This document shows, in pieces, positions 3,918 through 34,700 of a stretch of DNA of 47,704 nucleotides. Under the pieces are notes generated by a model. It was not told where the DNA came from. It saw only the letters and a program-made list of their open reading frames with translations, and did no database searches. Numbering within the stretch: the stretch's first letter is position 1; each line of letters begins with the position of its first letter. Source of the DNA: a virus; IMG/VR virus record IMGVR_UViG_3300021090_000037, positions 1-47,704 of that record; one strand, given 5' to 3'. The translations under genes were made by a program, and so were the position numbers.

Positions 3918-5859
3918 CGGCGTTTCCTATCGGGAGCGGTCCTTGCCCTGGGATCTGGCGAAGGAGGTTGGGATTGGAGGAGGCCGCAGCTTCAGGAAGG
4001 GGTATATCTCCCGGAGCGGGCTGCTGTCCGGGCTGCATCACCTCGATTTTGAATCGGTCGATGTTGCGGATACCGGCGAGCTGTGCAATGTAGGCGAAGA
4101 TCTTCCCGATGTCGTACTTCATGGCGATAGGCGCGGAAGTCATGATGGCTTGGAGAAGCTCCTTCCAGAGGTTCACCTGTGCCATACGGTCAAGGGGGAA
4201 GGTCCCGTCGATCGCGACGAAGTCGAAATTCCCGGCGATGAGCTGGGGGTTGACCTGGAGAAAGGCTGCGCCGGCATTCATGGCAAGGTCGCCGACAACC
4301 CGGACCTTCATGTCAGCATCGAAGTATTGCTGGGAGTTCATGACGATCTGGGAGGCGAAGTCCTCGAACCCGAGGCAGGACATGTATTCGGTCGTAACCT
4401 TTTGCCGCCCTGCAGAGGCTGTGTTGGAGGAGCGAATCTCCGTCGCGGTCCGCCGTCCCGATTTAGTCTGCGTCCCGGTCATAGCATCACTCACGCCATG
4501 GGCTCGTTCGCCGATCCCGACCATCGTGTTCATGTCGGAGACATGGGTGCGGGTGACGTCCATGACGTTGAGCTGTTGCACCGCATCGCCTGGGGTAAGA
4601 CGTGCGCCGGGGCGGAGACGGATAAGCCCGCCTGGAAGCGGGTCGGTTAGGTCCTTCATGTTGACTTTTGAAGGGTCGACGACGAGGAGGTTATTCAACG
4701 CGGCGCGGACGTTATACATGTGAGCGTTGAACAGCCAGTCCATCGTGGTCTGCACGCCCTTGTTGATCTCCGGAAAGCCTCGGTTCGACAGGGCATAGGC
4801 ATCGGGCTCCATCTCGTTGACGGAGAACGGGTACCGGCAGTGCATCGCGCCGAAGGGCTGAGCTCCGATGATCGTTTTCCAGTCGGCGGTTATGGTGAAG
4901 ACCCACTTAGTCGGGTAGGTCGACCCCCCGAGCTTCCAATCTGCGGGGACGAGCTGGACGAAGACCTCATATATCGGGACGATATCAGGGTGAGTTGGGG
5001 AGTCAGAGAAGTCCCGGGCGTAGGCGATATCGAGGTCGATCGCGTCGTCAGTCGGGCGCTCGACGGAGGAATCCTCCCCCCGGTCGTCCATGAAGCGCGG
5101 GAGGATCTTTGCATCGATCGCGTCCAGGTTCATGTAGAACCCATCACGCTCACGTTGTTTGATCGTTAACCACGACAACCGCTGGCGAGTTCCGCAGTAC
5201 TGCCCCTTTTGGAAGTCCCGCATGGCTACGCGAGGGTCGGGGAGGAAGTCGCGTGGGTGACAGTTGAATGCAGCGTTGCCGGTGTAGCCTTGAACCGTGG
5301 AGGTCTGCATCTCCTCGCCAAGATCTGCGCCGGTAAGCTCATCGTATAGGGGGACGATCTCGGTTACCTCCTGGATATCATTCATCCAGTAGTTCCCGAT
5401 GATGCCTGTCCCGTTCTTCGCGGTGTCGTAGAGCCAGGAGTAGATGTTCGGCCCCATCCTCGCGCCACGGTACTGGTAATCGATGAGGGCTTCAACCGCC
5501 ATACACTGCTGTTGGGTCTCGCCGTGCCTCCCGTCGAACTGGAAGATCGGGGTCCGGGACATGAACACGGAGGCCATGTAAGAGAAGGCCGACATAGTCA
5601 CGCCGTAGGTGTAGGGGACCTTGATCGTCGTGAAGCTCGGCTTCCCCTTTACCTCACGGTTATTCCGCCTCCGGGTGTCCGCGTCGGACTCCGGGATGTA
5701 GGCGACCATTTCGTCTTCCGCCTCAGTCCATTTTTTTCTTTTATCCTGGAACTTGCGCTCCGAGAACTTCATGAACCTCCGACACTCGTTGAGGATGAAG
5801 TCATGGAGGGGGGTTCCCCGGCGGATATCTCTACGGGACAGGCTCGGCATTAGGGGCAC
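3898..5859 (-). CDS. Portal protein
   Basis: 653 residues, the size of a podovirus portal. It forms the dodecameric channel at the capsid vertex through which DNA enters and leaves. Features seen: an N-terminal charged helix (NECRRFMKFSERKFQDKRKKWTEAE), then KVPYTYGVTMSAFSYMASVFM near residues 85-105, a DYQYRGARMGPNIYSWLYDTAKNGTGI segment typical of P22-like portals, and a C-terminal helical region. It follows the large terminase gene with a 10-base overlap and precedes the scaffold. ATG at 5850 is a nearby alternative start. Confidence 0.88.
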   Translation of the reverse strand: MPLMPSLSRRDIRRGTPLHDFILNECRRFMKFSERKFQDKRKKWTEAEDEMVAYIPESDADTRRRNNREVKGKPSFTTIKVPYTYGVTMSAFSYMASVFMSRTPIFQFDGRHGETQQQCMAVEALIDYQYRGARMGPNIYSWLYDTAKNGTGIIGNYWMNDIQEVTEIVPLYDELTGADLGEEMQTSTVQGYTGNAAFNCHPRDFLPDPRVAMRDFQKGQYCGTRQRLSWLTIKQRERDGFYMNLDAIDAKILPRFMDDRGEDSSVERPTDDAIDLDIAYARDFSDSPTHPDIVPIYEVFVQLVPADWKLGGSTYPTKWVFTITADWKTIIGAQPFGAMHCRYPFSVNEMEPDAYALSNRGFPEINKGVQTTMDWLFNAHMYNVRAALNNLLVVDPSKVNMKDLTDPLPGGLIRLRPGARLTPGDAVQQLNVMDVTRTHVSDMNTMVGIGERAHGVSDAMTGTQTKSGRRTATEIRSSNTASAGRQKVTTEYMSCLGFEDFASQIVMNSQQYFDADMKVRVVGDLAMNAGAAFLQVNPQLIAGNFDFVAIDGTFPLDRMAQVNLWKELLQAIMTSAPIAMKYDIGKIFAYIAQLAGIRNIDRFKIEVMQPGQQPAPGDIPLPEAAASSNPNLLRQIPGQGPLPIGNADGRLAA

Positions 5860-8190: not shown

Positions 8191-8375
8191 TGAAGCTGCT
8201 CCGGGTTTACGGGGATTAAAGGAGTTCTGTCATTTGGGCAGGGGTCGGGAGCCTCCTTAAGGGGGTTGTCCCCTACACTCCCGTCTCCTCCCAGGATGAA
8301 GAACTCCTTCTCAAAACCACATAGCGGGCAGCGGAAGCTACTCACTATAGGTCCTCGCTTTTCTTTGCGCCGCAA
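8187..8375 (-). CDS. Small zinc-ribbon-like protein
   Basis: 62 residues with FRCPLCGFEKEFF near the N-terminus (CxxC) and a second Cys further on (DPCPND), suggesting a small zinc-binding knuckle. Basic N-terminus (MRRKEKRG). It overlaps both neighbours by a few bases. The fourth ligand is not obvious, so zinc binding is tentative. Function unknown. Confidence 0.55.
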   Translation of the reverse strand: MRRKEKRGPIVSSFRCPLCGFEKEFFILGGDGSVGDNPLKEAPDPCPNDRTPLIPVNPEQLQ

Positions 8376-8859
8376 TCCACACGTCGCGGACGGCTTTCAG
8401 GTACGCGGACTTCATGTTCTCCGTCTGGGAGTTGAAATCGGGGAGATAGCCGGAGGCTTTGCCGATCACGTTGTGGACCTCGCGGGCGAGTTCGACATGC
8501 TCCTCGCAGGATAGGTCATCGAGATCGAGACGGAAGGATTTCACATGTTCCTCCGAGATGGGGAAGGACATACCGCCGAGGACTTCATTCACCTTCTCCG
8601 TGTCGGACTTCGCGGAGGGAAGGTCGTAGGCGTCGTCGAAGTCTTCGGAAGGAGCGGGGGAGGTGGCTATCCCCTCGGCCGCCTCGGAGAAGGGGACAGG
8701 ACCGGGGGCGCTGGACTGCCAGCCTCCATTGAGGTCCGATATCCCGAAACCGAACGGATCGTTGTCCTCGATTGTTGAGACGGGGTCAGTACCAATGTTC
8801 TCCAGTGTTTGGGTGACCGGCATCTCCTGGCTGGCCGTTGGCTGGGGTTTTTTTGCCAT
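8338..8859 (-). CDS. Late protein of unknown function
   Basis: 173 residues. The first 90 are Pro/Ser/Asp-rich and look disordered (DNDPFGFGISDLNGGWQSSAPG). The C-terminal half is helical (CEEHVELAREVHNVIGKASG, NMKSAYLKAVRDVWIAAQRKA). No enzyme motif is seen. It overlaps both flanking genes in the lysis and packaging cluster; a virion or packaging accessory role is possible. Confidence 0.65.
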   Translation of the reverse strand: MAKKPQPTASQEMPVTQTLENIGTDPVSTIEDNDPFGFGISDLNGGWQSSAPGPVPFSEAAEGIATSPAPSEDFDDAYDLPSAKSDTEKVNEVLGGMSFPISEEHVKSFRLDLDDLSCEEHVELAREVHNVIGKASGYLPDFNSQTENMKSAYLKAVRDVWIAAQRKARTYSE

Positions 8860-12951: not shown

Positions 12952-13178
12952 TAGAACGGCTTTCTACATATGTTGCACGGATAAAAACGGATAGCATACC
13001 CACACACGCCCCCGCCACCCAAAAATCGCCCCACGGCGCCCGGATCGCCCCACAATCAATTTCCCCCATTTCCCTGCATTCCTTCGGGTCCGTGCTGTCC
13101 TTTTTGCCTAGATCCAGCCCGCTACCTCGACGTGTGTCGCAAAAATATCACACAACCATTCAAGATATGAAAAGGCAT

Positions 13179-13205
13179 AAATTATATATAATTTTTTTTT
13201 TTTTT
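13179..13205 (+). promoter_or_regulatory. 16-base palindrome plus T14 tract
   Basis: The perfect palindrome AAATTATATATAATTT (13179-13194) runs into fourteen consecutive T (13192-13205). It could be an A/T-stem terminator, a DNA-unwinding element, or a bent regulatory site. Such a homopolymer is otherwise absent from the window. Confidence 0.5.
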
Positions 13206-13226
13206 CAACTCTTTATATCATACAAC

Positions 13227-14396: not shown

Positions 14397-14951
14397 ATGA
14401 CAAAAGTCACCTCATCCCTCCGCATCCACGACGTCACCCAAGCCTGCCGCCATGCTCTCACCCCTTCCCACGGCCTCGTCAAAATCACCTCCATCTCCTC
14501 CACCGCAGGAGACCTCCCCATCATCAAGGCCACAAGCATAAACCCAAACGGCGAAGAAGTATCTCTTTCCGGCCCCTTCTCCCAATTCACCCCTGACCTC
14601 GACCTCCCTGCCAAGCTTGAAACCATCGCCCACACTTCCTCCGCCCTCACCGCCATGCTCGCCGGCATCGCCCGCTTCCGCATCGGCATGGCCTCCGGCC
14701 TCATCGATGAGGCCATGCTTCAATCCCTCCGCAAACTCGCGGAAGACAAATTCGGCGCCCACATCACCGACCTCGCATTCTCCATGATCGCCGGCATAAC
14801 CCGCAACCTCGAGTACAACAGAGCCACCTCCGCCTACACCCCTATCGAGGGGGAGAAGAAAGAGGACGAAGACTCCTCCACCATCGGCATCTTCTACGTC
14901 GACGAGACCGGCATCCACCCCGTTTCCCTTAAGGACTTCCTCAAGGGCTAA
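14397..14951 (+). CDS. Early protein of unknown function
   Basis: 184 residues. N-terminal mixed alpha/beta part (SLRIHDVTQACRHALTPSHG, then ATSINPNGEEVSLSGPFSQF), then a helical part (about 65-140: LETIAHTSSALTAMLAGIARFRIGMASGLIDEAML) and an acidic linker before a terminal strand pair (TIGIFYVDETGIHPVSL). No active-site pattern seen. It ends at a strong terminator. The xGEEVSL then helix layout is reminiscent of the gene at 12016. Codons are strongly C-ending, as in its neighbours. Confidence 0.75.
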   Translation: MTKVTSSLRIHDVTQACRHALTPSHGLVKITSISSTAGDLPIIKATSINPNGEEVSLSGPFSQFTPDLDLPAKLETIAHTSSALTAMLAGIARFRIGMASGLIDEAMLQSLRKLAEDKFGAHITDLAFSMIAGITRNLEYNRATSAYTPIEGEKKEDEDSSTIGIFYVDETGIHPVSLKDFLKG

Positions 14952-14962
14952 AGGAAGTCCTT

Positions 14963-14996
14963 GGGAAGCTCCTCCACCTAGGGAGCTTCCCTTTCT
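14963..14996 (+). terminator. Intrinsic terminator
   Basis: Perfect 10-bp stem GGGAAGCTCC (14963-14972)/GGAGCTTCCC (14982-14991) with a 9-base loop, followed by TTTCTTTCT. It closes the 13389-14951 transcript, immediately ahead of the structured RNA candidate. Confidence 0.85.
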
Positions 14997-15011
14997 TTCT
15001 CTTTCCTCCGA

Positions 15012-15159
15012 CCATGCGGGGCGGAAACTTCCACCGCAACGTCCGGGAAGGGATAGACCATTCGGGCTGTCACCGCGAGAAGGGCTCACCTCACCTTTCT
15101 TGGCCCGAATAAGAAGGAGTTCCCCCTGCTTCTCCTTCTCCCTCTATCCCCCCGCATGG
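15012..15159 (+). ncRNA. Structured RNA candidate with multiway junction
   Basis: Four perfect nested helices: P1 CCATGCGGGG 15012-15021 with 15150-15159; P2 GGGATAGA 15050-15057 with 15143-15150; inside P2, P3 ATTCGGGC 15060-15067 with 15103-15110 (extendable by two G-U pairs) and P4 AGAAGGAG 15112-15119 with 15132-15139. A small GCGG/CCGC hairpin (15021-15037) fills the P1-P2 gap and competes with P1/P2 for one base. No ORF covers it. It sits between a terminator and the ribosome site of the next gene, so it could be a free RNA or a leader element. Stem identities were read directly; expression is inference. Confidence 0.65.
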
Positions 15160-15185
15160 CCGCAGGAAGAAGAAAGGACTTATCC

Positions 15186-15287
15186 ATGTTCCAGCGTTTC
15201 GAGCGTTACCGCCTTGAGTACCTCCTCATCCTAACCGGGCTCTTTATCCAGGGCTCCCTCCTCACAGGTATCTTCCTATGCAGATAG
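15186..15287 (+). CDS. Single-span membrane peptide
   Basis: 33 residues: MFQRFERYRLEYLLILTG and a hydrophobic stretch to IFLCR. It has one membrane segment (about 12-31) with a basic N-terminus. The site GGAAGAAGAAAGG lies 10-22 bases upstream. Its last codons overlap the start of the next gene at 15278, suggesting coupling. It is first after the structured RNA. Membrane peptides of this size occur as inhibitors or anti-host factors in early regions, which is speculative here. Confidence 0.55.
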   Translation: MFQRFERYRLEYLLILTGLFIQGSLLTGIFLCR

Positions 15288-15502
15288 CTACCATCGTCCT
15301 CACCCTCTTCCTCCACACCGGAGAAGACCGCAAACTCGACGGAAGCCACTTCCCCCCAAGGCAAGAGGAGTTCCGCTTCAACTTCCTCACCCCCGAGGCC
15401 TGCACAGCAAAAGCCCTCGAAATCGAAACCGCCTGGGCCTCATCCCCCCGCACCTCCATCTCCTGGGACTGCCTCTACACAGAGGATCTCGACCTGATAT
15501 GA
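15278..15502 (+). CDS. Small early protein with hydrophobic N-terminus
   Basis: 74 residues. MQIATIVLTLFLHTGEDRK resembles a short or degenerate signal sequence, followed by a soluble part with two Cys (ACTAKA, WDCLYTEDL). It overlaps both neighbours (10 and 4 bases). No family recognised; a periplasmic or membrane-attached protein is possible. Confidence 0.6.
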   Translation: MQIATIVLTLFLHTGEDRKLDGSHFPPRQEEFRFNFLTPEACTAKALEIETAWASSPRTSISWDCLYTEDLDLI

Positions 15503-15681
15503 GCGACGCCTCCGCCGACTACATGAAGCTCAATATCGTCCACCTCAAATCTAAAATAGAGGGACTAGAAAGCGAAATACAGCGACTCACCTCCGACCTC
15601 CACAGCGCCATCGAGGAAAACGAGAAGCTAACCACAACCATCGACGTAATTTTAGCTCGACTTAAAGAGGCCAAAACATGA
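15499..15681 (+). CDS. Small coiled-coil protein
   Basis: 60 residues, almost entirely a heptad coiled coil (VHLKSKIEGLESEIQRLTSD then AIEENEKLTTTIDVILARLK). It is coupled by ATGA overlap to both neighbours. Likely dimeric; function unknown. Confidence 0.6.
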   Translation: MSDASADYMKLNIVHLKSKIEGLESEIQRLTSDLHSAIEENEKLTTTIDVILARLKEAKT

Positions 15682-15848
15682 GCGCGGACAAAAAAACCAA
15701 CCTCCCCCTCGGCAATCCCGGCAACCGCACAACTCGCTGCCTCCCTTGCGCCGGAACAGGAAAAACCGTCGAGCCCGACGCATCCGGCAAGCTCATCAAA
15801 ATGGACTGCCCCTACTGCGGCGGAACCGGGAAGGTACCCACCAAATGA
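15678..15848 (+). CDS. DnaJ-type zinc-finger miniprotein
   Basis: 56 residues with two CxxCxGxG motifs, CLPCAGTG and CPYCGGTG, about 22 residues apart. This is half of the four-motif cysteine-rich domain of DnaJ and enough to bind one zinc. No J-domain is present. ATG overlaps the upstream stop, with AGAGG upstream, and ATGA joins the next gene. Small proteins of this type exist in bacteria and phages; a chaperone-mimic or protein-binding role is inference. Confidence 0.65.
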   Translation: MSADKKTNLPLGNPGNRTTRCLPCAGTGKTVEPDASGKLIKMDCPYCGGTGKVPTK

Positions 15849-17585: not shown

Positions 17586-17755
17586 TGCGCAAGATTAACA
17601 GTTTCCTCCTCCGCCAACGCGACAACATCACGAAAGGAAAAAGCGACCACGTAACCGTCCTCACCTCCGAGGAAGCTTTCCGCCTAGCCCGGCTCCTCCT
17701 CGACGAAGTCGCCCTCGACCAATTCGGAGTTCTCACATGTACATCCTCGGCCTAG
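17585..17755 (+). CDS. Short early protein, 56 residues
   Basis: MRKINSFLLRQRDNITKGKS, then VTVLTSEEAFRLARLLLDEV and a short tail. The ATG overlaps the preceding stop and AAGGAG lies about eleven bases upstream. A strand-helix layout is predicted. It overlaps the next gene by 19 bases. Function unknown. Confidence 0.55.
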   Translation: MRKINSFLLRQRDNITKGKSDHVTVLTSEEAFRLARLLLDEVALDQFGVLTCTSSA

Positions 17756-18048
17756 CCGGACGCCCCGACACCTTCACCTGCAAGGAAGACCTTATCTCCT
17801 TCCTCAAGGCCATAAAAGCGACCTTGAATAAGAAATACCAAAACGCCACGGGAGCCCATATGTTCTTCTTCGTCCACATCCCGGATGCGAAGAGGGTATG
17901 GGTGACCGGCGTAAAAGGCAAGCAAGATACCTTCTGCGCCTACACCACCTCCCCGGAGGCCGTCGCTCAAAGCGAGAAATACTCCAAATTCTACACCCCT
18001 CGCGAAGTCTACCTAATCTCCTTCGGTGACGAAAGGAACGATGCATGA
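17737..18048 (+). CDS. Early protein of unknown function
   Basis: 103 residues, compact alpha/beta (MYILGLAGRPDTFTCKEDLI, HMFFFVHIPDAKRVWVTGVK, TPREVYLISFGDERNDA). GGAG precedes the start. ATGA overlap with the next gene. No motif recognised. Confidence 0.65.
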   Translation: MYILGLAGRPDTFTCKEDLISFLKAIKATLNKKYQNATGAHMFFFVHIPDAKRVWVTGVKGKQDTFCAYTTSPEAVAQSEKYSKFYTPREVYLISFGDERNDA

Positions 18049-22779: not shown

Positions 22780-23735
22780 TGGCGTTCATCCCACCAAAGG
22801 GGGCTCCGGCTCCCACCATCTCCGCCCCTCGCCCTTCCGGACCCGTCCGCCCGGTGATCTCCCGCCCGATCATAGTCCGGGACGAGCCACTTACCCCGCC
22901 GGCAATCATGCTCCTCGGCGACATCGGAAGCGGAAAGACCCACTCCATCATCTCCGCGCTAAAGAAAGGCCTCGAAGTCTTCGTCATCATCACGGAGAAC
23001 ACCGGGGTCGAAACCCTCATCGATGCGTGCAAGAAGGAGCACGTCTCCATGGAGCGCCTGCACTGGCGCCGCTGCACCCCGACCCAACAGGGCTGGGACG
23101 TGATGAAGGCCCAGGCCAAGCTCACGAATACCCACAGTGTGGGCGAGCTACAGGAGATGAAGAACGGCCTCGACCGCTTCAAATATCCGGCCTTCATGAA
23201 GCTCCTCGAAGCCTGTGAGAACTTCACCTGCGACCGGACGAAAGAATCCTTTGGGGACATCATGACCTGGGACGACTCTCGCCTCCTCGTCCTCGACTCC
23301 ATGTCCGGCCTGAACGAGATCGTCTCCTCCCACGTCACCGGGCACCGGATCACCATGACCCAGCCAGAGTTCGGCGTCGTGCAAAACCATATCTACCAGC
23401 TCTGTAATACCCTCTGCGGCCTGAACTGCTATTTCATGGTCACCGGGCATATTGAGATGGAGAGCGACGAGGCTAAAGGCACGACCAAATTCATGATCTC
23501 CACCGTCGGGAGGAAGCTCGCCCCGAAGCTTCCGAGGGTTTTTTCCGAAGTCGTCTACGCAAAGAAGGACAACGGGAAATATGTCTGGACCACCGACGAC
23601 TCTAAAGTCATAACAAAGTCCCGCGCACTCCCTGTCGGGACGATGCCAGCGGACTTCGGAATTCTCGTAGACATATATGGAAAACGGAAACTCGAAGCGG
23701 AGCAGGAACTTAAAGATGCCTCAAATACCGCTTAA
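22779..23735 (+). CDS. RecA-like ATPase, Sak4-type recombinase
   Basis: 318 residues. Walker A GDIGSGKT (47-54), Walker B RLLVLDS (D173) followed by MSGLNE, and a C-terminal NxxxxCGLNCYFMVTGHIE strand. Size and arrangement fit phage Sak4 single-strand annealing or strand-exchange ATPases, which act with an SSB. The neighbouring nuclease and putative SSB support this. An AP2-HNH gene overlaps its final 20 bases, so the C-terminus may have been altered by the insertion. Confidence 0.8.
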   Translation: MAFIPPKGAPAPTISAPRPSGPVRPVISRPIIVRDEPLTPPAIMLLGDIGSGKTHSIISALKKGLEVFVIITENTGVETLIDACKKEHVSMERLHWRRCTPTQQGWDVMKAQAKLTNTHSVGELQEMKNGLDRFKYPAFMKLLEACENFTCDRTKESFGDIMTWDDSRLLVLDSMSGLNEIVSSHVTGHRITMTQPEFGVVQNHIYQLCNTLCGLNCYFMVTGHIEMESDEAKGTTKFMISTVGRKLAPKLPRVFSEVVYAKKDNGKYVWTTDDSKVITKSRALPVGTMPADFGILVDIYGKRKLEAEQELKDASNTA

Positions 23736-24180
23736 ACGAGGGGCATTTAAGCTTCTAGGGTACACTACAGTAGATGAGGTAGACTACACCTACCTTAATC
23801 AATTCTCTTGGACATTAGACAGTAGGGGCTATGCTAGTACTCGCATAGATAAAAAAACCTATCGGATGCACTACCTCCTAGGAGGTAAGTGGCAAGACCA
23901 TAAAGATCGAAATAAACTCAACAATACAAGGGGAAATATTCGACCTTGTACACCCCAACAAAATTCTTTCAACCGAAGTCGAAGAGCTACAACCAAAGCC
24001 AAATGGAAAGGCGTAGCTAGAGTAGGCTCACGTTGGAAAGCAACTATCAGGGTAAATGGCCTGCACTGTCATCTAGGCGTATTCAACTGTCCTACACGAG
24101 CAGCCATTGCTTATGATAAAACAGCTTTAAAAATAGGAGGAGAGTTTGCAGCCTGTAACATCTTAAACATAACCGCTTAA
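23716..24180 (+). CDS. HNH homing endonuclease with AP2 domain
   Basis: 154 residues from ATG 23716 (AGGAAC upstream), overlapping the ATPase end by 20 bases. HNH part: MHYLLGGKWQDHKDRNKLNN followed by RGNIRPCTPQQNSFNR. AP2-type DNA-binding part: KWKGVARVGSRWKATIRVNG and HLGVFNCPTRAAIAYDKTA. The gene is strikingly AT-richer than its neighbours, indicating transfer. Free-standing phage HNH-AP2 genes are mobile and cut cognate sites. Confidence 0.88.
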   Translation: MPQIPLKRGAFKLLGYTTVDEVDYTYLNQFSWTLDSRGYASTRIDKKTYRMHYLLGGKWQDHKDRNKLNNTRGNIRPCTPQQNSFNRSRRATTKAKWKGVARVGSRWKATIRVNGLHCHLGVFNCPTRAAIAYDKTALKIGGEFAACNILNITA

Positions 24181-26654: not shown

Positions 26655-26830
26655 TGGCTACCCGGAAGCAAATTAAAGCTCGGCTTAACCTCTTCGGAAT
26701 CGGGATAGGTATCCCCGCCCGAGCCTATGCAATCGGCATTGAACAAGACCCGCACTATCTCGAACTATCTCGAGCAAGGATGACCACCACCTCAGCTGAG
26801 CTTGACGCCGAAGAGTTGGAGAGCTTCTAA
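26654..26830 (+). pseudogene. Leftover methyltransferase C-terminus
   Basis: 58 residues in frame, starting MATRKQIKARLNLFGIGIG. Its last 34 residues align without gaps to the last 34 of the methyltransferase gene at 17 positions, including GIE-x-D-x-HY-x-x-LSR and EEL-x-x-F. The SAM-binding loop before it is degenerate. The ATG overlaps the methyltransferase stop (TGATG) and the stop overlaps the HNH start. It looks like the remnant of an ancestral methyltransferase end after a replacement linked to the HNH gene. Confidence 0.7.
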
Positions 26831-27294
26831 TGGACGACATATTTCCGTTAGAATACGCTCAAACAAATCTGACATACAATTCAGATACGGGAGAGCTTAG
26901 ATGGTTAACAGACGGAACGGGCTTTAGAACTGCTGGTCAATTAGTTAACGGGAGAGACAAAGATGGTTATCTCATTGTCTCAGTTAAGGGTAAACAACAT
27001 AGAGCCCATAAAGTGTGCTGGGCTTTATTTTATGGAGAATACCCTACTTTTATTGTCCATCACGATAACAAGATACGAGATGATAACCGTATAAAAAACC
27101 TCGTAGCTAGCTCTAACCAGCATAACAGTAGAAACCGCAAGGTACATGATCATCAACCTCTAGGTGTCTACAAACACAAGGCCTCAGGTAAGTGGTGCGC
27201 GACCTATAAGACAGCGGTTAGATGGAAACATCTAGGTCTTTATGCCTCAATGGAAGAGGCTGCTAATGCCTTAAAGGAAGGTGGTTATGTCTGA
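26830..27294 (+). CDS. HNH homing endonuclease
   Basis: 154 residues. HNH core HRAHKVCWALFYGEYPTFIV, then HHDNKIRDDNRIKNLVASS and NQHNSRN. A C-terminal GVYKHKASGKWCATYKTAVR and HLGLYASMEEAANAL act as an AP2-like DNA-binding part. AT-rich against GC-rich surroundings. It overlaps the next gene by eight bases and the methyltransferase remnant by one. The first roughly 75 bases of the polymerase gene beyond it are AT-rich too, suggesting a co-converted flank. Confidence 0.85.
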   Translation: MDDIFPLEYAQTNLTYNSDTGELRWLTDGTGFRTAGQLVNGRDKDGYLIVSVKGKQHRAHKVCWALFYGEYPTFIVHHDNKIRDDNRIKNLVASSNQHNSRNRKVHDHQPLGVYKHKASGKWCATYKTAVRWKHLGLYASMEEAANALKEGGYV

Positions 27295-29074
27295 TATATT
27301 TATTGGGACAAGAGGCCCACACAATGCAAGGATTTTAATTGTAGGAGAAAGTTGGGGCGCAACCGAGGAGCGCTTCGAAAAGCCCTTCATGGGGGAGTCC
27401 GGGAATGAGCTTAAGAACATGCTTAAAGAGGCAGGCGTAGACCCGGACGAATGCCTCTACACGAACCTCATAAACGCCCGTCCTCTCGATAACAACTTCA
27501 AACACTTCCTCCTCCGTACACAGGAAGCCAAGGATGAAAAGCTCAAACCCTTTCGGGGAGTATTCCCACGATCAGAACTCCTTGAGGCCTATGATCGTCT
27601 CCACCGACTTATCCTCCACGTCCGACCTGCAATCATTCTGTGCCTGGGCAATTGGGCCCTCTGGGCCGTCACTGATCACATTCGCATCCGAGCCGGGACA
27701 AAGAAAGAGCGCAACAACGGATACAAGCTCGCCACCGGCATCGACACCTACCGAGGGAGCATGGAACGCTCTCAAGCAAGCCTGGGCAGCATCCCCGTCC
27801 TCGCCACTTACCACCCCGCTGCCATCCTACGTATGTGGCCGTGGCGTTTTACTGCGGTATCTGACCTACGAAGAGTTCGAGAGTATATATCCCAACCTCC
27901 CGATCTCCGGAAATGGGGCCGCAGCCCTTCGATCAAGCGGTGGATTGTCCCGGACGTCTCGACCGTCGAGGCCTGGATCGAGGGGTTCTTCCAAGGGAAG
28001 GAGAAGGAAACCGTCCTCGAACTCACGCTCGATCTGGAGACCTACGCCGGCAAGATCCACCTTATGGGATTATCTACCCCTAACTCAACCCGGCTCATCG
28101 TCCCCTTCATGGACGTATCTAAGACAGGGACCAAGCCCTTCTACTCTCCTTATGACTGGCGACGTGTATACCGGGCGATACGTTCCCTCCTCACTGATCC
28201 GCGAGTCCGTCTCGTGGGGCAGAATCTTCTCTATGATGCTCAATACCTTCACAATGAGTTTGCATACGTACCCCGTATCGGTTTCGATACCATGGTGGCA
28301 CAGCATCTTCTATGGCCCGCGCTTCGGAAGGGCCTGGATTTCATGGCCTCTGTCTACTGCGACTTCTACACCTACTGGAAAGAGGATAGAAAAACATCTC
28401 TCGAGAATGAGGATCTCAGCCTCGCCTCAAATTATAACGCTGACGATCTGGACTACACAGAAGATGTGGCAGAGGAGCTAAGGAAGCAGCTCAAAACCGA
28501 AGGAATGGAGGGGCTCTTTTCCGACCGCATGGAGCTAGTCGAGATCCTCCTCGACATGATGATCCACGGGGTCCGCGTCGATGGGAGGAAGAAACGCGCC
28601 CAGTCCCTCGCTATGATGATGACCATGGGGGAGTTAATCTCCTGGCTCGAAGGCGCGATCCCCGACTACCTCAAACCCGTAGGGAAGAAGGGCTCGAAAC
28701 CCTGGTACTCCTCCGACACAAAATTGAGGACGCTGTTCTATGAGAATCTTGAACTGGACCCTATCTACGATAAGGAAACTGGCGAGCCTTCGCTTAATAA
28801 GCATGCCCTCGAACGCCTCGGGTTCAAGTACCCTGAGTTCAAGCCGCTTTTCGGAGCTATTACCCTCTTCCGAAGCGCCCGGACCTTCCGAGGTACTTTT
28901 CTGGACGCCGTTCTCGATCCCGACGGACACTGGCGCTGTGCTTACACTATCACAACTGAGACCGGACGGCTCGCCTCGGCAGAGAACGTTTACGATCGTG
29001 GTGGGAACCTCGCGAACATCCCGCGCGATAGAGAACCTCTAAACTTCTACAACGCAATCGAGCAGCTCAGCTAA
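27287..29074 (+). CDS. UDG-exonuclease-PolA N-terminal part of split DNA polymerase
   Basis: 595 residues from ATG 27287 (AAGGAAGG upstream; GTG 27281 is possible). Residues 1-200: uracil-DNA-glycosylase superfamily domain (VGESWG...PFMGESGNEL, TYHPAAILR), lacking an obvious Fe-S Cys set. Residues about 243-395: 3'-5' exonuclease with DLET (D249, E251), GQNLLYDAQY (D317) and YNADD (Y383, D387). Then thumb and TTETGRLAS...NIPRD, the family-A motif before motif A. The protein stops there at QLS. The palm and fingers with motifs A, B and C are encoded at 29674-30462. Confidence 0.9.
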   Translation: MSDIFIGTRGPHNARILIVGESWGATEERFEKPFMGESGNELKNMLKEAGVDPDECLYTNLINARPLDNNFKHFLLRTQEAKDEKLKPFRGVFPRSELLEAYDRLHRLILHVRPAIILCLGNWALWAVTDHIRIRAGTKKERNNGYKLATGIDTYRGSMERSQASLGSIPVLATYHPAAILRMWPWRFTAVSDLRRVREYISQPPDLRKWGRSPSIKRWIVPDVSTVEAWIEGFFQGKEKETVLELTLDLETYAGKIHLMGLSTPNSTRLIVPFMDVSKTGTKPFYSPYDWRRVYRAIRSLLTDPRVRLVGQNLLYDAQYLHNEFAYVPRIGFDTMVAQHLLWPALRKGLDFMASVYCDFYTYWKEDRKTSLENEDLSLASNYNADDLDYTEDVAEELRKQLKTEGMEGLFSDRMELVEILLDMMIHGVRVDGRKKRAQSLAMMMTMGELISWLEGAIPDYLKPVGKKGSKPWYSSDTKLRTLFYENLELDPIYDKETGEPSLNKHALERLGFKYPEFKPLFGAITLFRSARTFRGTFLDAVLDPDGHWRCAYTITTETGRLASAENVYDRGGNLANIPRDREPLNFYNAIEQLS

Positions 29075-29084
29075 GGAAGCTCCC

Positions 29085-29696
29085 ATGTCCATCCCATCTT
29101 CCCTCTGGATACAAACCCACAATGGAGGTGTTTATGACTACGACTCCTCGGAGAACTCGACACCTATCACCCCTCACACGATTGCTCATTCTCTTGCTCG
29201 CACTTATCGCTTTCGTGGACATTCTCGTTACCGCTGGACAGTTGCCGAGCATTCCCTGCTCGTCCGTAATATCGGGATGCAGCTTCTATCCTCCAATGAA
29301 GAGCGGCTTCTCGCAGCTCCCTATCTCCTCCTCCATGATGCTCACGAGGCCTTCCTCGGTGACATGCCGGCGCCGCTGAAGAAGTATCTCCGGGAGAAAT
29401 ACAAGTTCGACATGACGCAGATGGAGAAGCTAACCGATAAGAGGATCAGAAAAGACCTCAAGCTTAACCCCCCCAACGGCTGGGTCCTCGCCCTTATCGG
29501 TGAAGCCGACATCTATGCCCTCAAGCTAGAGCGTGAAGCCTTCATGGCGTCGAAGCATGAATGGGTCATCGACGAAATCAAAATCCCGATCGATATAAAG
29601 GTGGCGTTAGAAAAGGAGCTTTCCGCTCAAACCCTCACTCGTGTATTCCGGAACGCGATCCAGGACGCCATCCATGCTACACAACCCACTACATAA
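29085..29696 (+). CDS. HD-domain phosphohydrolase between the polymerase halves
   Basis: 203 residues. HD-superfamily metal site: H56 (TVAEHSL), H84-D85 (LLHDAHEAFLGD) and D142 (GEADIYAL). WIQTHNGG and RFRGHSRY match the phage family related to YfbR-type deoxynucleotidases and to the dATPase DatZ. A role in trimming dNMP or dNTP pools is likely. It starts ten bases after the polymerase N-terminal gene and overlaps the C-terminal gene by 23 bases. No PurZ-like gene is present, so diaminopurine DNA is not supported. Confidence 0.85.
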   Translation: MSIPSSLWIQTHNGGVYDYDSSENSTPITPHTIAHSLARTYRFRGHSRYRWTVAEHSLLVRNIGMQLLSSNEERLLAAPYLLLHDAHEAFLGDMPAPLKKYLREKYKFDMTQMEKLTDKRIRKDLKLNPPNGWVLALIGEADIYALKLEREAFMASKHEWVIDEIKIPIDIKVALEKELSAQTLTRVFRNAIQDAIHATQPTT

Positions 29697-30462
29697 GGCC
29701 ACCTCTCAATCCTTTGATTTCCCTCCCATCCGGGACATCTTCATCCCCGATCCCGGAATGACTATCATCGACATCGACCTTGAAGGTGCGGACGCCCGAG
29801 TCGTTGCATGGAGGGTGAAGAGCGAGCGGCTGAAGAAAGCCTTCCGTGAGGGACTTAAAGTCCACGCCGTCAACGCAAAACTTATGTTCCCCTCTTCCGA
29901 ATGTGGGGAGGACGGGATGAAGGAGCCCACCTATACGAAGACAAAGAAATGTACCCACGGCACTAACTATGGCGTCACCGCCCCGACCATGTCCTCCCAC
30001 ACAGGCTTCCCCGTTCATGAGTGTAAATCCTTCATCATCCGATGGCTCCGTGCCAACCCCGAAATCGTCGAGTGGCATAAAGAAATCGAGTTTCTTATCC
30101 AACGCGATCGAGGAATCTCTAACCCCTTCGGATATAAGATCCGATGGTTCGATCGGCCTCACGCTCTCCGCAATAAAGGCCTTGCATGGGAGCCCCAGAG
30201 CGTTGTGGCTGAGGTTACATACCGAGTACTTCGCCGCCTTAGAAAAGAGGAGCCCCAAATTCAACCTCTCATGCAGGTTCACGACTCCCTCGTCCTTCAA
30301 TGCCGGACGATCAACCTTCAATCCTGCCTCCGAAACCTATATCGCATCTGCAATGATATCATCGTTCCTTATCCCGACCCGCTAATCATCCCCTGGGGGC
30401 TAAAGCTTTCCACCTCTTCCTGGGGGGAGGCGACTAAGGCGAAATGGGGAGATTATATTTAG
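29674..30462 (+). CDS. DNA polymerase I catalytic half (palm and fingers)
   Basis: 262 residues from ATG 29674 (GTG 29641 possible). After RDIFIPDPGM, motif A is IDLEGADAR (D35), motif B TKTKKCTHGTNYG (K91/K92, Y99, G100), motif C QVHDSLV (H203, D204), so all catalytic acids are present. It lacks its own thumb and exonuclease, which lie in the 27287 gene. The two must pair for activity. Its start lies inside the HD gene, so the three are translationally linked. Confidence 0.88.
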   Translation: MLHNPLHKATSQSFDFPPIRDIFIPDPGMTIIDIDLEGADARVVAWRVKSERLKKAFREGLKVHAVNAKLMFPSSECGEDGMKEPTYTKTKKCTHGTNYGVTAPTMSSHTGFPVHECKSFIIRWLRANPEIVEWHKEIEFLIQRDRGISNPFGYKIRWFDRPHALRNKGLAWEPQSVVAEVTYRVLRRLRKEEPQIQPLMQVHDSLVLQCRTINLQSCLRNLYRICNDIIVPYPDPLIIPWGLKLSTSSWGEATKAKWGDYI

Positions 30463-30471
30463 GGGAACCTC

Positions 30472-31692
30472 GTGGCAAAGCGCATCTTCGACAGCTGGTT
30501 TAACGGATATAGGAAATACACCTTCAACACTGAAGCCCCCGGAGCTTTCCATTGGTGGACGGCCGTCTCCACCATTGCCGGCGCCATGCAGAGGAAGGTT
30601 TATATCGACCAAAAGACCTTCGACTGGGTTCCGAATTTCTACATCTGCCTCGTCGGCCAGGCCGGGCTGGTCACAAAATCCACCTCCCTCCGCATGGGGG
30701 AGCAACTCCTCCGTAAGTTGGGGAAGAAGATCCGCTTCGGAAGTCAGTCCGGCTCCTGGCAGGCCATGGCGAAGGAGATACAGGACTCGAAGTATCAAAT
30801 CCAGGGAGGGTTAATGTCATGCCCCATAAGCTATTTCGTCTCCGAGTTCGGGACTTTTTTCGACCCGCAAAATCGCGAGCAGGTCGACTTCTTCGTCGAC
30901 TCCTGGGACGCGCAGAAGACAGGGTTCACGAGGTCAACGATATCCGGGGGACAGGTCGAAATCCAGTGCCCCTGTGTGAATATCCTTGCTGCGACCACCC
31001 CGACATGGATCAAGGAGAATTTCACCGCTACTATGGTGGGTGGCGGCTTTGCTTCACGCCTCATTTTTGTGCGCGGTCACGCCAAGAGAAAGCTTATCGC
31101 CTATCCCGGACTGGAGGAGACTGACGAGGACCATCTCAAGCTTCAAGAGCAACTCGTTTCTGACCTCAGACAAATAGGTGAGATGGAAGGCCCGATGCAC
31201 CTCACCCCCGAAGCGGTCGAATGGGGGAGGGACTGGTACCTCGGGCACTACACGAAGAAGCGCCAACTCTCCGGCGAGCGATTCGATGGGTACTACGCGA
31301 GGAAGCAAACCCACATGCACAAGCTCGCAATTATCCTCTCAGCCGCAGAGGGGAGTTCCATGAAGGTGGAGGTGAGGCATCTAAGCCAGGCGAACGATCA
31401 ACTTCTTCTCGTGGAGAAGGATCTCGCGAGCGTAATCGACAACGTAACCTCGAAACAAATCTCGACCACTCATAAGCGGGAGATCCTCTCGATCATACGC
31501 GGGGAGGGAGAGATAGATAGGGAGGAGCTTTACGCTCAGCTCTTCCAGATGATGTCCGGGCCGGACTTCGACAAAGGCCTATCTGACCTAATCAAAGCCC
31601 GGCAGATTACGATATCCCCACGGGGAGGAAAAACGCTCCTTACTATCAAGGATACCTCCCCCGTGGTCGTGCCGATTAAAAAGAAGGGATAG
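30472..31692 (+). CDS. DUF3987-type ATPase, putative replicative helicase
   Basis: 406 residues from GTG 30472 (AGGGGAA upstream). Walker A is GQAGLVTKST (62-71), with a Walker-B-like FVSEFGTF near 121-128 and a sensor-type NILAATTPTW. This fits the DUF3987 proteins found in phage replication modules, thought to act as primase-helicase ATPases. No separate primase was found. It is the last early gene, ending three bases before the right 33-nt hairpin region. Confidence 0.8.
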   Translation: MAKRIFDSWFNGYRKYTFNTEAPGAFHWWTAVSTIAGAMQRKVYIDQKTFDWVPNFYICLVGQAGLVTKSTSLRMGEQLLRKLGKKIRFGSQSGSWQAMAKEIQDSKYQIQGGLMSCPISYFVSEFGTFFDPQNREQVDFFVDSWDAQKTGFTRSTISGGQVEIQCPCVNILAATTPTWIKENFTATMVGGGFASRLIFVRGHAKRKLIAYPGLEETDEDHLKLQEQLVSDLRQIGEMEGPMHLTPEAVEWGRDWYLGHYTKKRQLSGERFDGYYARKQTHMHKLAIILSAAEGSSMKVEVRHLSQANDQLLLVEKDLASVIDNVTSKQISTTHKREILSIIRGEGEIDREELYAQLFQMMSGPDFDKGLSDLIKARQITISPRGGKTLLTIKDTSPVVVPIKKKG

Positions 31693-31695
31693 GTC

Positions 31696-31739
31696 GTAGG
31701 AAGTGGGCAATCTGCAATCTGATAATCGCCCACTTCTAC
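31696..31739. terminator. Hairpin between convergent blocks; contains right 33-nt element
   Basis: A 12-bp stem GTAG(g)AAGTGGGC (31696-31708)/GCCCACTTCTAC (31728-31739) with a 19-base loop. The inner AGTGGGC/GCCCACT core (31702-31734) is the third copy of the 33-nt element. No T tract follows in either direction. Both the early gene and the giant late gene end beside it, so it may act as a bidirectional transcript end. Confidence 0.65.
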
Positions 31740-34700
31740 CTACCTCGGCACCTTCTCCCTACGGGTCACAGCTTCAGGATAAAGCCTATCAACCTGACCT
31801 GTGACCCCCCTCACCGCCTTATTGACCGGGACGCCCGCTTCCTTAAATTTCAGATTGCGTCCCTGCGCCTGCATGGATTTCTTGAGCGTATCGTTCGTTA
31901 TCCGCAGCGCCTTGTCCGGGGCCTCTTCATTAAACCCCCTGATCGCTTTGACAGCGTCCTCAATCCCCTCCTTATCCTTAAGCCTCTTCGCCCGGAACAA
32001 CTCCTGCGTGAGGATCTGCCTCTGCCCCAGCCAATACCTCTGCACCTCCATCTGAGCGCGGGAGTAATCCCACTGCCGGGAGAGTTTCGCAGGGTTAAAC
32101 CCGGCCGCGACGGAGGCAATATCCATCTGGTCGCTCATATCATTTGGATCGAACGAAACGACCGTTGCCCCGGACCTATCCCTTTCCCTCTGCTCCGCCA
32201 TAAGCCGCGAGCTTTTCATCATCGCCCGGAGCGCCCGGGGGAACGTCCTTTCCCACCTCTTCACATCATCGGCCGGGAGGGAATGATCCATGACCGACTG
32301 GTAGATATTGAACGGGACCCCAAGCCACGGGCCAGCAACCTCGCTCGTCACCTGCCCGACAGTCTCCCTCCAGGAGGAACTATCCGGGTTAATCATCCCT
32401 TTAAGTCCGGGGATGAGTTTCCCCATCGACAGGCTTCCCGAAAGGTCAGGCGTAGCGGAGGGTATCCCTAACCCATTCAACGCTGCGGGTATGCCGAACC
32501 CGATGCGAGAGGCCCCATGCAACACAATATCCCCCGTATTCCCCTCGGTCCAATCCGCCATCATCGTCCGAATCATTTTCTCAAAATCGAAGCTCATTCC
32601 GAACTGACGGAGCAACCACTTCATCAGCTCATTTGCATCGTCCGCACCGGGGAGCCCCATCAACCCAGCCGTCGCAGCTAGACCGAGCAGCATCCTCACC
32701 TGCACTCCTCTATCCTGCTTGAAGAGGAAGAATAGCATATTCTGAAGATAGCTCTTAAACATCAAGAGCACGCCCCTCGGCCCGGACATCAGCTTCGGTC
32801 TGGCCCAACGGGAGTATTCAAATTGAGTCGTTCTGACCGCGTCAGCCGCGACCATATACGCCCGGAGATGCGGCTCATCCCACCCCCGGTCCACACGCAG
32901 TTGGTCAGCTTCCTGCTGGTTCCCCGCCATGACCTCATTAACATGAGCACTGTTATTGTCTGCGAGCGCCATCTTATAAGCTGCTCTAAACGTAACCGCC
33001 CGGTTGAACTTTTCAGCGAGGGAGAACGGCGCTGTCCCCCACTGCCCGAGCCGGCGAAGACCTTGCCCGAACTTACTCGTCGATAGGGTCCTTTGCAGTA
33101 CGCTCCCTTGTGATATGGCGGCCAGCTCTTGCGCAAAGCCATCGTCAAGGAGGCGGGACTCATGGGCCTCCTCAATGGCTTCCGAAAGTATGCCCTCATC
33201 CTTCGGCTGAACTCCTCGCAGTTCATTGAAATAATCCTTGCTCACATCCCGGAAGGCGGCCGTCACCTTCCCCATCGTGGTCAGATCGCCGAACTTAGCC
33301 GCGAGGTACGGCATCGCCACCATCGGAACCTGCGTGAGGTTCACGAACGCCGTCGCCGGGACGAACGCAAAATACCACAGATACCCAATCGCCCTCATCT
33401 CCGCCCAATCGGTCGAGGGCTTCATCAACTCCTCATAATGCCGCGTCATGTAATCCGCGATACGAGTTCGAGCATCTTGAGAGATAGGGCTCCCGCTATT
33501 CCGGACGTCTTTAATCGCCCCTTCGAGCCGCTTTGTATATTCCTGCCTCGCGACGAACCGAGCCGCTCGTGCGAAGTAAGTTCCGTAAGCGCGAAGACCA
33601 TCTGCAGAAAAGCCCGGCGTGTTCGCGCGCTCGAGCAACTGACGACGAAAGGAAGTAGTCGGAGCCGCTTGGAGGGCCAGTGCCTCCAGGAGTTTCTTAT
33701 CCTTCTTTTGCTGCGCCGTAAGGTCGGGCTTATCAAGGCCAAGCGCGCTCTCGATATTTCTGAGCGCAAATGCCGGAAGCCCCTGCCATTGCTGGAGGGT
33801 AGGAGAGAGTTCATCTTCGACAATCGAGTTGTCCGCAGGGACTTTATATGTCTTCTCGATCGCGACGACAGCACCATCTCGTTCCTTCTTCGACGAGAAG
33901 GCTTCGAAATGAAGGACCTCTCCTTTGTTATTCCTCACCGTCACGACATACTTCCCAAACCTCATATGCGGGAAATACGGCCGGGCCTTCATCTGAGCCA
34001 CTTCCCCCGAAATGCTCTTCACCTCCTTCGCAAGTTCGAGGGGGTCCTGTATCGTCTCAATTGCCTTTTGAGTCGACACCTCCTCAAGGTAGGACAGGAA
34101 CTGTAGGAAATCTTGACGAATATTAACATATGCGTCGAACGCGGCCTTTTGCAGCCCGTGCTTTTTGACGAGGGTAAGAAGCTCCTGCTCCGTCGGCCAA
34201 CGGGTTTCATGATCCTCCTTCTGTTTCGCCGTGAGGTAGGTCATTTGATCAAGCTCGAAGAGAAGCTTGAACAGCGCATCGGACTGAGCCTTGCCCAGCG
34301 CATGCACTTCCCTTACGCGTGAGTCGGCCAGCGACGCCCAGCTAAGCGCCGTGTTTTCCATGGCCCGGTTAAGGGACTTATACGCCTGTAGACCCGCTAT
34401 ATGGGGGTTCAGGTCGGCCATCTGATGGATACCTAAGATCCATTCCATCATGGTGTTATGTCGATCGGCGACGGCCAGAAGCCCCTTAATCTTTGCCCTA
34501 TCCGCATGGGCATCTTTCGGGAAGATCTTGAGCAGTTGCTTCACCCGGAAGGTAGAGGCTCTTTCCGGGAACATCGTAACACTCTCATCAAGCCCGAGGG
34601 TTTTGGCGTTCTTCACATTCCTCGCAATAGAGTCATTCAACGCCCGACGGGTAGGCTCGGATAGGAAAGGTTCCTCCTGCGTGACCTTTCCCCTCTGCAT

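Follow-up and report, generated by a model that had tools for sequence, protein, structure and literature searches.

The gap between two genes in the genome of an uncultured virus of bacteria (an IMG/VR virus record of 47,704 bases, here called the window) almost certainly holds a selected RNA structure, which spans positions 14993-15178 and whose reading direction, as judged from folding and comparison, is that of the operon. Gaps in phage genomes are mostly read as empty, while this one holds an elaborate RNA whose shape survived the replacement of roughly half of the letters in its helices, which makes its function worth testing. Upstream of the structured element is the gene at 14397-14951, and downstream of it a series of very small genes begins at 15186. 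Its plan consists of a closing stem (P0/P1), a small hairpin, helix P2 and a three-way junction from which P4 and a bulged P3 branch off. The features of the region are given below, together with their counterparts in two related viral genomes, L002 and L003.

14963-14991, + strand: hairpin of 11 bp with a T/C tail, just 3' of the stop codon of gene 14397-14951 (terminator scan)
14993-15010, + strand: 5' strand of P0, a pyrimidine tract, near-identical in L002 (RNAfold; alignment)
15012-15020, + strand: 5' strand of P1, pairing with 15151-15159 (fold; three two-sided changes in L002)
15021-15037, + strand: small hairpin Pa between P1 and P2, stem 15021-15024/15034-15037 (fold; weak, pair probability 0.36)
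15038-15049, + strand: linker carrying CGUCCGGG, present in L002 too (sequence)
15050-15057, + strand: 5' strand of P2, pairing with 15143-15150 (fold; hand alignment with L002)
15060-15067, + strand: 5' strand of P3a, pairing with 15103-15110 (fold; hand alignment with L002)
15068-15075, + strand: one-sided bulge of 8 nt, of equal length and position in L002 (5644-5651) (fold)
15076-15102, + strand: P3b hairpin, 9 bp (15076-15084/15094-15102), with the loop ACCUC common to L002 (fold)
15103-15110, + strand: 3' strand of P3a (fold)
15112-15139, + strand: P4 hairpin (15112-15119/15132-15139), with the loop CCCCUGCUUC common to L002 (fold; alignment)
15143-15150, + strand: 3' strand of P2, abutting P1 without a linker, as in L002 (fold)
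15151-15159, + strand: 3' strand of P1 (fold)
15161-15178, + strand: 3' strand of P0, including the ribosome site AAAGGA at 15173-15178 (fold; mean unpaired probability 0.05)
15186-15287, + strand: gene for a 33-aa hydrophobic peptide, in the window and L002, with mostly synonymous changes in the core
15278-15502, + strand: gene for a 74-aa protein, overlapping the peptide gene and conserved in L002 and L003

For 15012-15159, RNAfold returned a minimum-energy fold made up of the four helices P1-P4 of the original prediction. Its stability (-63.2 kcal/mol, z -3.81) was matched by 0/200 dinucleotide shuffles and that of the full element (z -4.80) by 0/1000, in agreement with the earlier view that chance formation was unlikely. 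P2 has the 8 bp first described, whereas P1 forms 9 bp (15012-15020/15151-15159) instead of 10, because both helices as listed used C15150. P1 was the outermost helix first listed; P0 (14993-15010/15161-15178) extends this closing stem further outwards. P3 does not end with the two G-U pairs that had been proposed and instead opens into the 8-nt bulge, which is followed by the 9-bp P3b. The ribosome site does not favour 15129-15141 as its partner, the alternative that had been suggested; 15164-15178 is predicted to pair mainly with the pyrimidine tract at 14993-15007. As for the terminator placed upstream, a hairpin is indeed found at the equivalent position in both phages, with a different sequence in L002; it has an 11-bp stem in the window, but its T tract is interrupted (TTTCTTTCTC) and that of L002 is weaker. 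This hairpin might serve as a weak terminator or as a 3' stabiliser. Within the element, the conserved motif GGGCGGAAA spans 15019-15027, where Pa begins, and is identical in L002. The GGGAA of the window linker is complementary to UUCCC of the P4 loop and could form a pseudoknot.

To the left of approximately 11 kb the window genes are mostly encoded on the - strand; a + strand block then occupies 12 to 31.7 kb, and beyond 31.7 kb the genes are again on the - strand. The + strand block starts with small unknown proteins, followed by an exonuclease, a RecA-like ATPase, which resembles phage entries named 'putative DNA helicase', a DNA polymerase and others. The capsid protein shares 22-43% identity with its counterparts in a small number of scattered phage isolates, with Microcystis phage Mel-JY34 as the best match. 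An AT-rich stretch at 13118-13208 contains a run of 14 T residues and, on the - strand, a sigma-70-like promoter with 11 of 12 matching positions; it is 89% identical in L002 and is likely a control region or origin. The order of the genes and this promoter-like divergence region suggest that the element belongs to an early region. Further along the + strand block, a 56-aa protein at 15678-15848 carries CxxCxGxG-type repeats and shows weak similarity to DnaJ zinc domains and anti-TRAP, below the Pfam cut-offs. A 167-aa ORF at 23677-24180 resembles, by eye, proteins of the homing-endonuclease type, and a similar-looking ORF is located at 26830-27294. After the RecA-like gene and before the gene that follows it, the window has about 450 bases that are absent from L002, and the 167-aa ORF falls within them. 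A 203-aa ORF at 29085-29696 seems to split the DNA polymerase (27281-30462) into two parts, 27281-29074 and 29641-30462.

Folding stability was scanned along both strands in 150-nt segments (1842/1904) that were compared with shuffles. Across the core of the RNA junction (segments starting at 15001 and 15051), the + strand folds better than the - strand relative to their own shuffles. The most stably folded 350-nt stretch of the + strand relative to shuffles was 14851-15200, and across both strands it was outranked only by the convergent-gene junction near 31500-31900. This junction of converging genes (31501-31900) contains an inverted repeat (GAAGTGGGC...GCCCACTTC, near 31700-31737), which is probably a two-way terminator. 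Two further regions stood out in the scan. The + strand fold at 17801-18000 is unusually stable (z -4.8, 0/200 shuffles) and lies within the coding region of gene 17737-18048, and a very stable long stem (z -4.8) was detected on the - strand at 8201-8350, in and around the gap after gene 8338-8859.

Relatives were sought by scanning viral contigs with seven protein queries and one DNA pattern, by scanning genome contigs, and by searching a phage collection with megablast of the region and tblastn of two phage proteins. No close relatives beyond L002 (IMG/VR 3300049228_000125) and L003 were found in the viral contigs, genome contigs and phage collection. Conserved proteins of L002 are 90-93% identical to those of the window, and those of L003 75-80%. 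The gap at the equivalent gene junction of L002 (5532-5754) folds on the same plan, with P0, P1 set directly on P2, and a junction of P3a, its one-sided bulge of 8 nt, P3b and P4; the stability of this fold (z -3.9) was matched by 0/1000 shuffles. Only 42 of the 84 paired positions (50%) carry identical letters in the window and L002, and the motifs GGGCGGAAA after P1, CGUCCGGG before P2, ACCUC in the P3b loop and CCCCUGCUUC in the P4 loop are common to both. In tree distance the two folds lie 89 apart, compared with 177 +/- 23 for shuffled L002 sequences, and their cores (P2-P4) 27 apart, compared with 81 +/- 11; neither value was reached by any of 1000 shuffles. The gene preceding the RNA appears to lack its middle in L002 (5361-5492, compared with window 14397-14951), in frame and with its ends kept (approximately 44/184 codons). 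L003 carries a different and very stable row of hairpins in its gap (4283-4497, z -6.4), where the ribosome site AAAGGAGAG is paired with CUCUCCUUU. This fold is no nearer to the window fold than L003's own shuffles are, and no match to the window covariance model was detected in L003. Mel-JY34, Vibrio phage VS-ABTNL-3 and MW202489, which are distant but have related capsid or helicase genes, also gave no convincing model match.

The covariance model, built from the window sequence alone, identified L002 at 5546-5739 (E 5e-4 in 279 kb) and nothing comparable elsewhere. With filters off, cmsearch gave L002 just 12.4 bits over a shorter span, and this evidence is therefore of moderate weight and dependent on the search mode, unlike the shuffle tests. 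A long insert in the L002 linker led plain MAFFT to misplace P2 and P3, and its alignment was set aside in favour of model-based and hand-made alignments. In the model-based alignment, 94.7% of the cells pair and 12 of the 48 pairs are changed on both sides, a result that 0/500 shuffles reproduced (slid controls gave 1-2). Alignment of the helices by hand yielded 18 two-sided changes in 42 pairs and three broken cells. Both alignments lean towards structure. P1 is flanked by identical sequence stretches, and its three two-sided changes are independent of alignment fitting. The refuting condition first named, helices broken without compensation in homologous phages, turned out in favour of the RNA in L002, the sole close homologue, where compensatory changes are present and the architecture is kept. 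Covariation between two sequences argues strongly for the existence of the structure and weakly for its details, such as the small hairpin and the pseudoknot between linker and P4 loop.

The core of the 33-aa peptide, LLILTGLFIQG, is identical in the window and L002, and the codon changes read there are synonymous. The peptide gene was not found in L003, where the RNA is missing as well, and both are present together in the window and L002 (three genomes in all). The peptide start follows the outer end of P1 after about 26 nt in the window and 53 nt in L002. The unpaired probability of the ribosome site is 0.05 in the window, where 22 other gene starts average 0.37; it is 0.57 in L002 and 0.2 in L003. 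An insert of about 30 nt shifts the ribosome site of L002 outside P0, and masking alone is therefore unlikely to be the conserved role.

The best explanation, put forward tentatively, is that the element is a cis-acting structured leader of the pair formed by the 33-aa membrane-peptide gene and the 74-aa gene. Transcripts that pass the 14963-14991 hairpin by read-through would fold into the junction, and the closing stem, over the ribosome site in the window or just upstream of it in L002, would keep translation of the peptide low until opened. Opening might occur by an RNase III-type cut of the long stem or through a protein or other factor that recognises the conserved loops and the bulge; this step is the least certain part of the proposal. 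Fold stability, the L002 architecture, the model match and the two-sided changes were counted for a cis-acting leader, as were the spacing from P1 to the start codon, the co-occurrence of RNA and peptide, the burial of the window ribosome site and the folding preference of the + strand. Counted against it were that masking is not conserved in L002, that the complex conserved core with its bulge and loops exceeds the needs of a simple masking stem, and that two sequences only carry the RNA, with peptide co-occurrence resting on three genomes.

That masking is not conserved in L002 also speaks for a free-standing non-coding RNA, a serious though less probable rival. Such an RNA would be processed out of the operon message, or be transcribed from a promoter that escaped notice, and would act in trans, on the phage itself or on its host. 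Its contact sites would be the conserved loops, the bulge and the linker, and the unpaired motifs (GGGCGGAAA, CGUCCGGG, ACCUC and CCCCUGCUUC) are indeed conserved amid strongly altered helices, in an RNA with paired ends and a long processable stem. However, no promoter-like site was found just upstream, and the loops pair no better than shuffled loops with the phage gene starts of the window; the search of phage gene starts, for which several coordinates on the L002 side are approximate, revealed no target that beat shuffled loops. A more specific version, rather doubtful at present, places the element in a new family of phage non-coding RNAs with a compact fold, which would be released from the early transcript and, as the cell is taken over, would use their conserved loops and bulge to contact a protein or RNA of host or phage.

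It is unlikely that the element is mainly an intercistronic processing or stability element, in which P0/P1 would form an RNase III site that splits the upstream and downstream messages, with the inner part mainly a protective fold. The long imperfect stem does adjoin the hairpin after the stop codon, and the different hairpin row of L003 suggests that stable structure at this junction may be a shared need, but such stems need not retain an inner three-way junction, an 8-nt bulge and identical loop motifs. Very improbable are a role at the DNA level, as a replication start, a cruciform or a packaging site, and a function as a packaging RNA of the phi29 type. Inverted repeats could equally form in DNA, and the packaging RNAs of the phi29 family are likewise three-way junctions whose fold is conserved despite variable sequence (PMC12670572), but the G-U pairs and the better relative folding of the operon strand point to RNA. 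The required pairing between hairpin loops was not found either, as the P3b and P4 loops share no complementarity of at least 4 bases in either phage and just the linker-to-loop pairing of the window is available; the lack of an Rfam match and the phi29-unlike gene layout of a 47.7-kb genome also count against packaging. Chance folding of pyrimidine- and purine-rich sequence is scarcely credible, since biased composition yields many stems in this genome but 0/1000 shuffles matched either the stability or the similarity to L002, and the changes relative to L002 are compensatory.

No Rfam 15 family reached the gathering threshold in the window, as anticipated when the element was assigned to no known class, and permissive Rfam scans of the window and L002 loci returned only sub-threshold, chance-like matches that differed between the two. 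The element is thus a candidate for a new and narrowly distributed RNA family, of a general kind that is known (structured RNAs in phage gaps), and the window and L002 provide a two-sequence seed for it. This suggests that structured phage RNAs may change too fast for plain sequence searches. The RNase III sites between the early genes of T7-like phages are simpler stem-loops, which share with the element the location of stem structures in early-operon gaps; the element differs by its three-way junction and conserved loop motifs. Type I toxin mRNAs have structured 5' leaders, and the likeness lies in the presence of such a leader ahead of a very short peptide of hydrophobic character, with the ribosome site paired in the window. 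No antisense RNA gene as in those systems was seen, the putative peptide gene overlaps a longer conserved gene, and masking is not kept in L002. The c4 antisense RNA of P1/P7-type phages (RF01695) is a structured regulatory RNA whose loops are believed to base-pair close to a ribosome site (PMC12197685). As a phage RNA that acts through its loops it comes nearest in concept; the element does not match its Rfam model, and complementarity of this kind to the phage's own gene starts was not found beyond the level of shuffled loops. Nearest in look is the phi29 packaging RNA, which likewise comes from a phage, has closed ends and a three-way junction, and keeps its fold through sequence change. 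The element differs in being operon-internal, in matching no Rfam model and in the 8-nt one-sided bulge of P3, and it shares the three-way junction closed by a helix of the 5' and 3' ends, to which it adds the linker and hairpin between P1 and P2.
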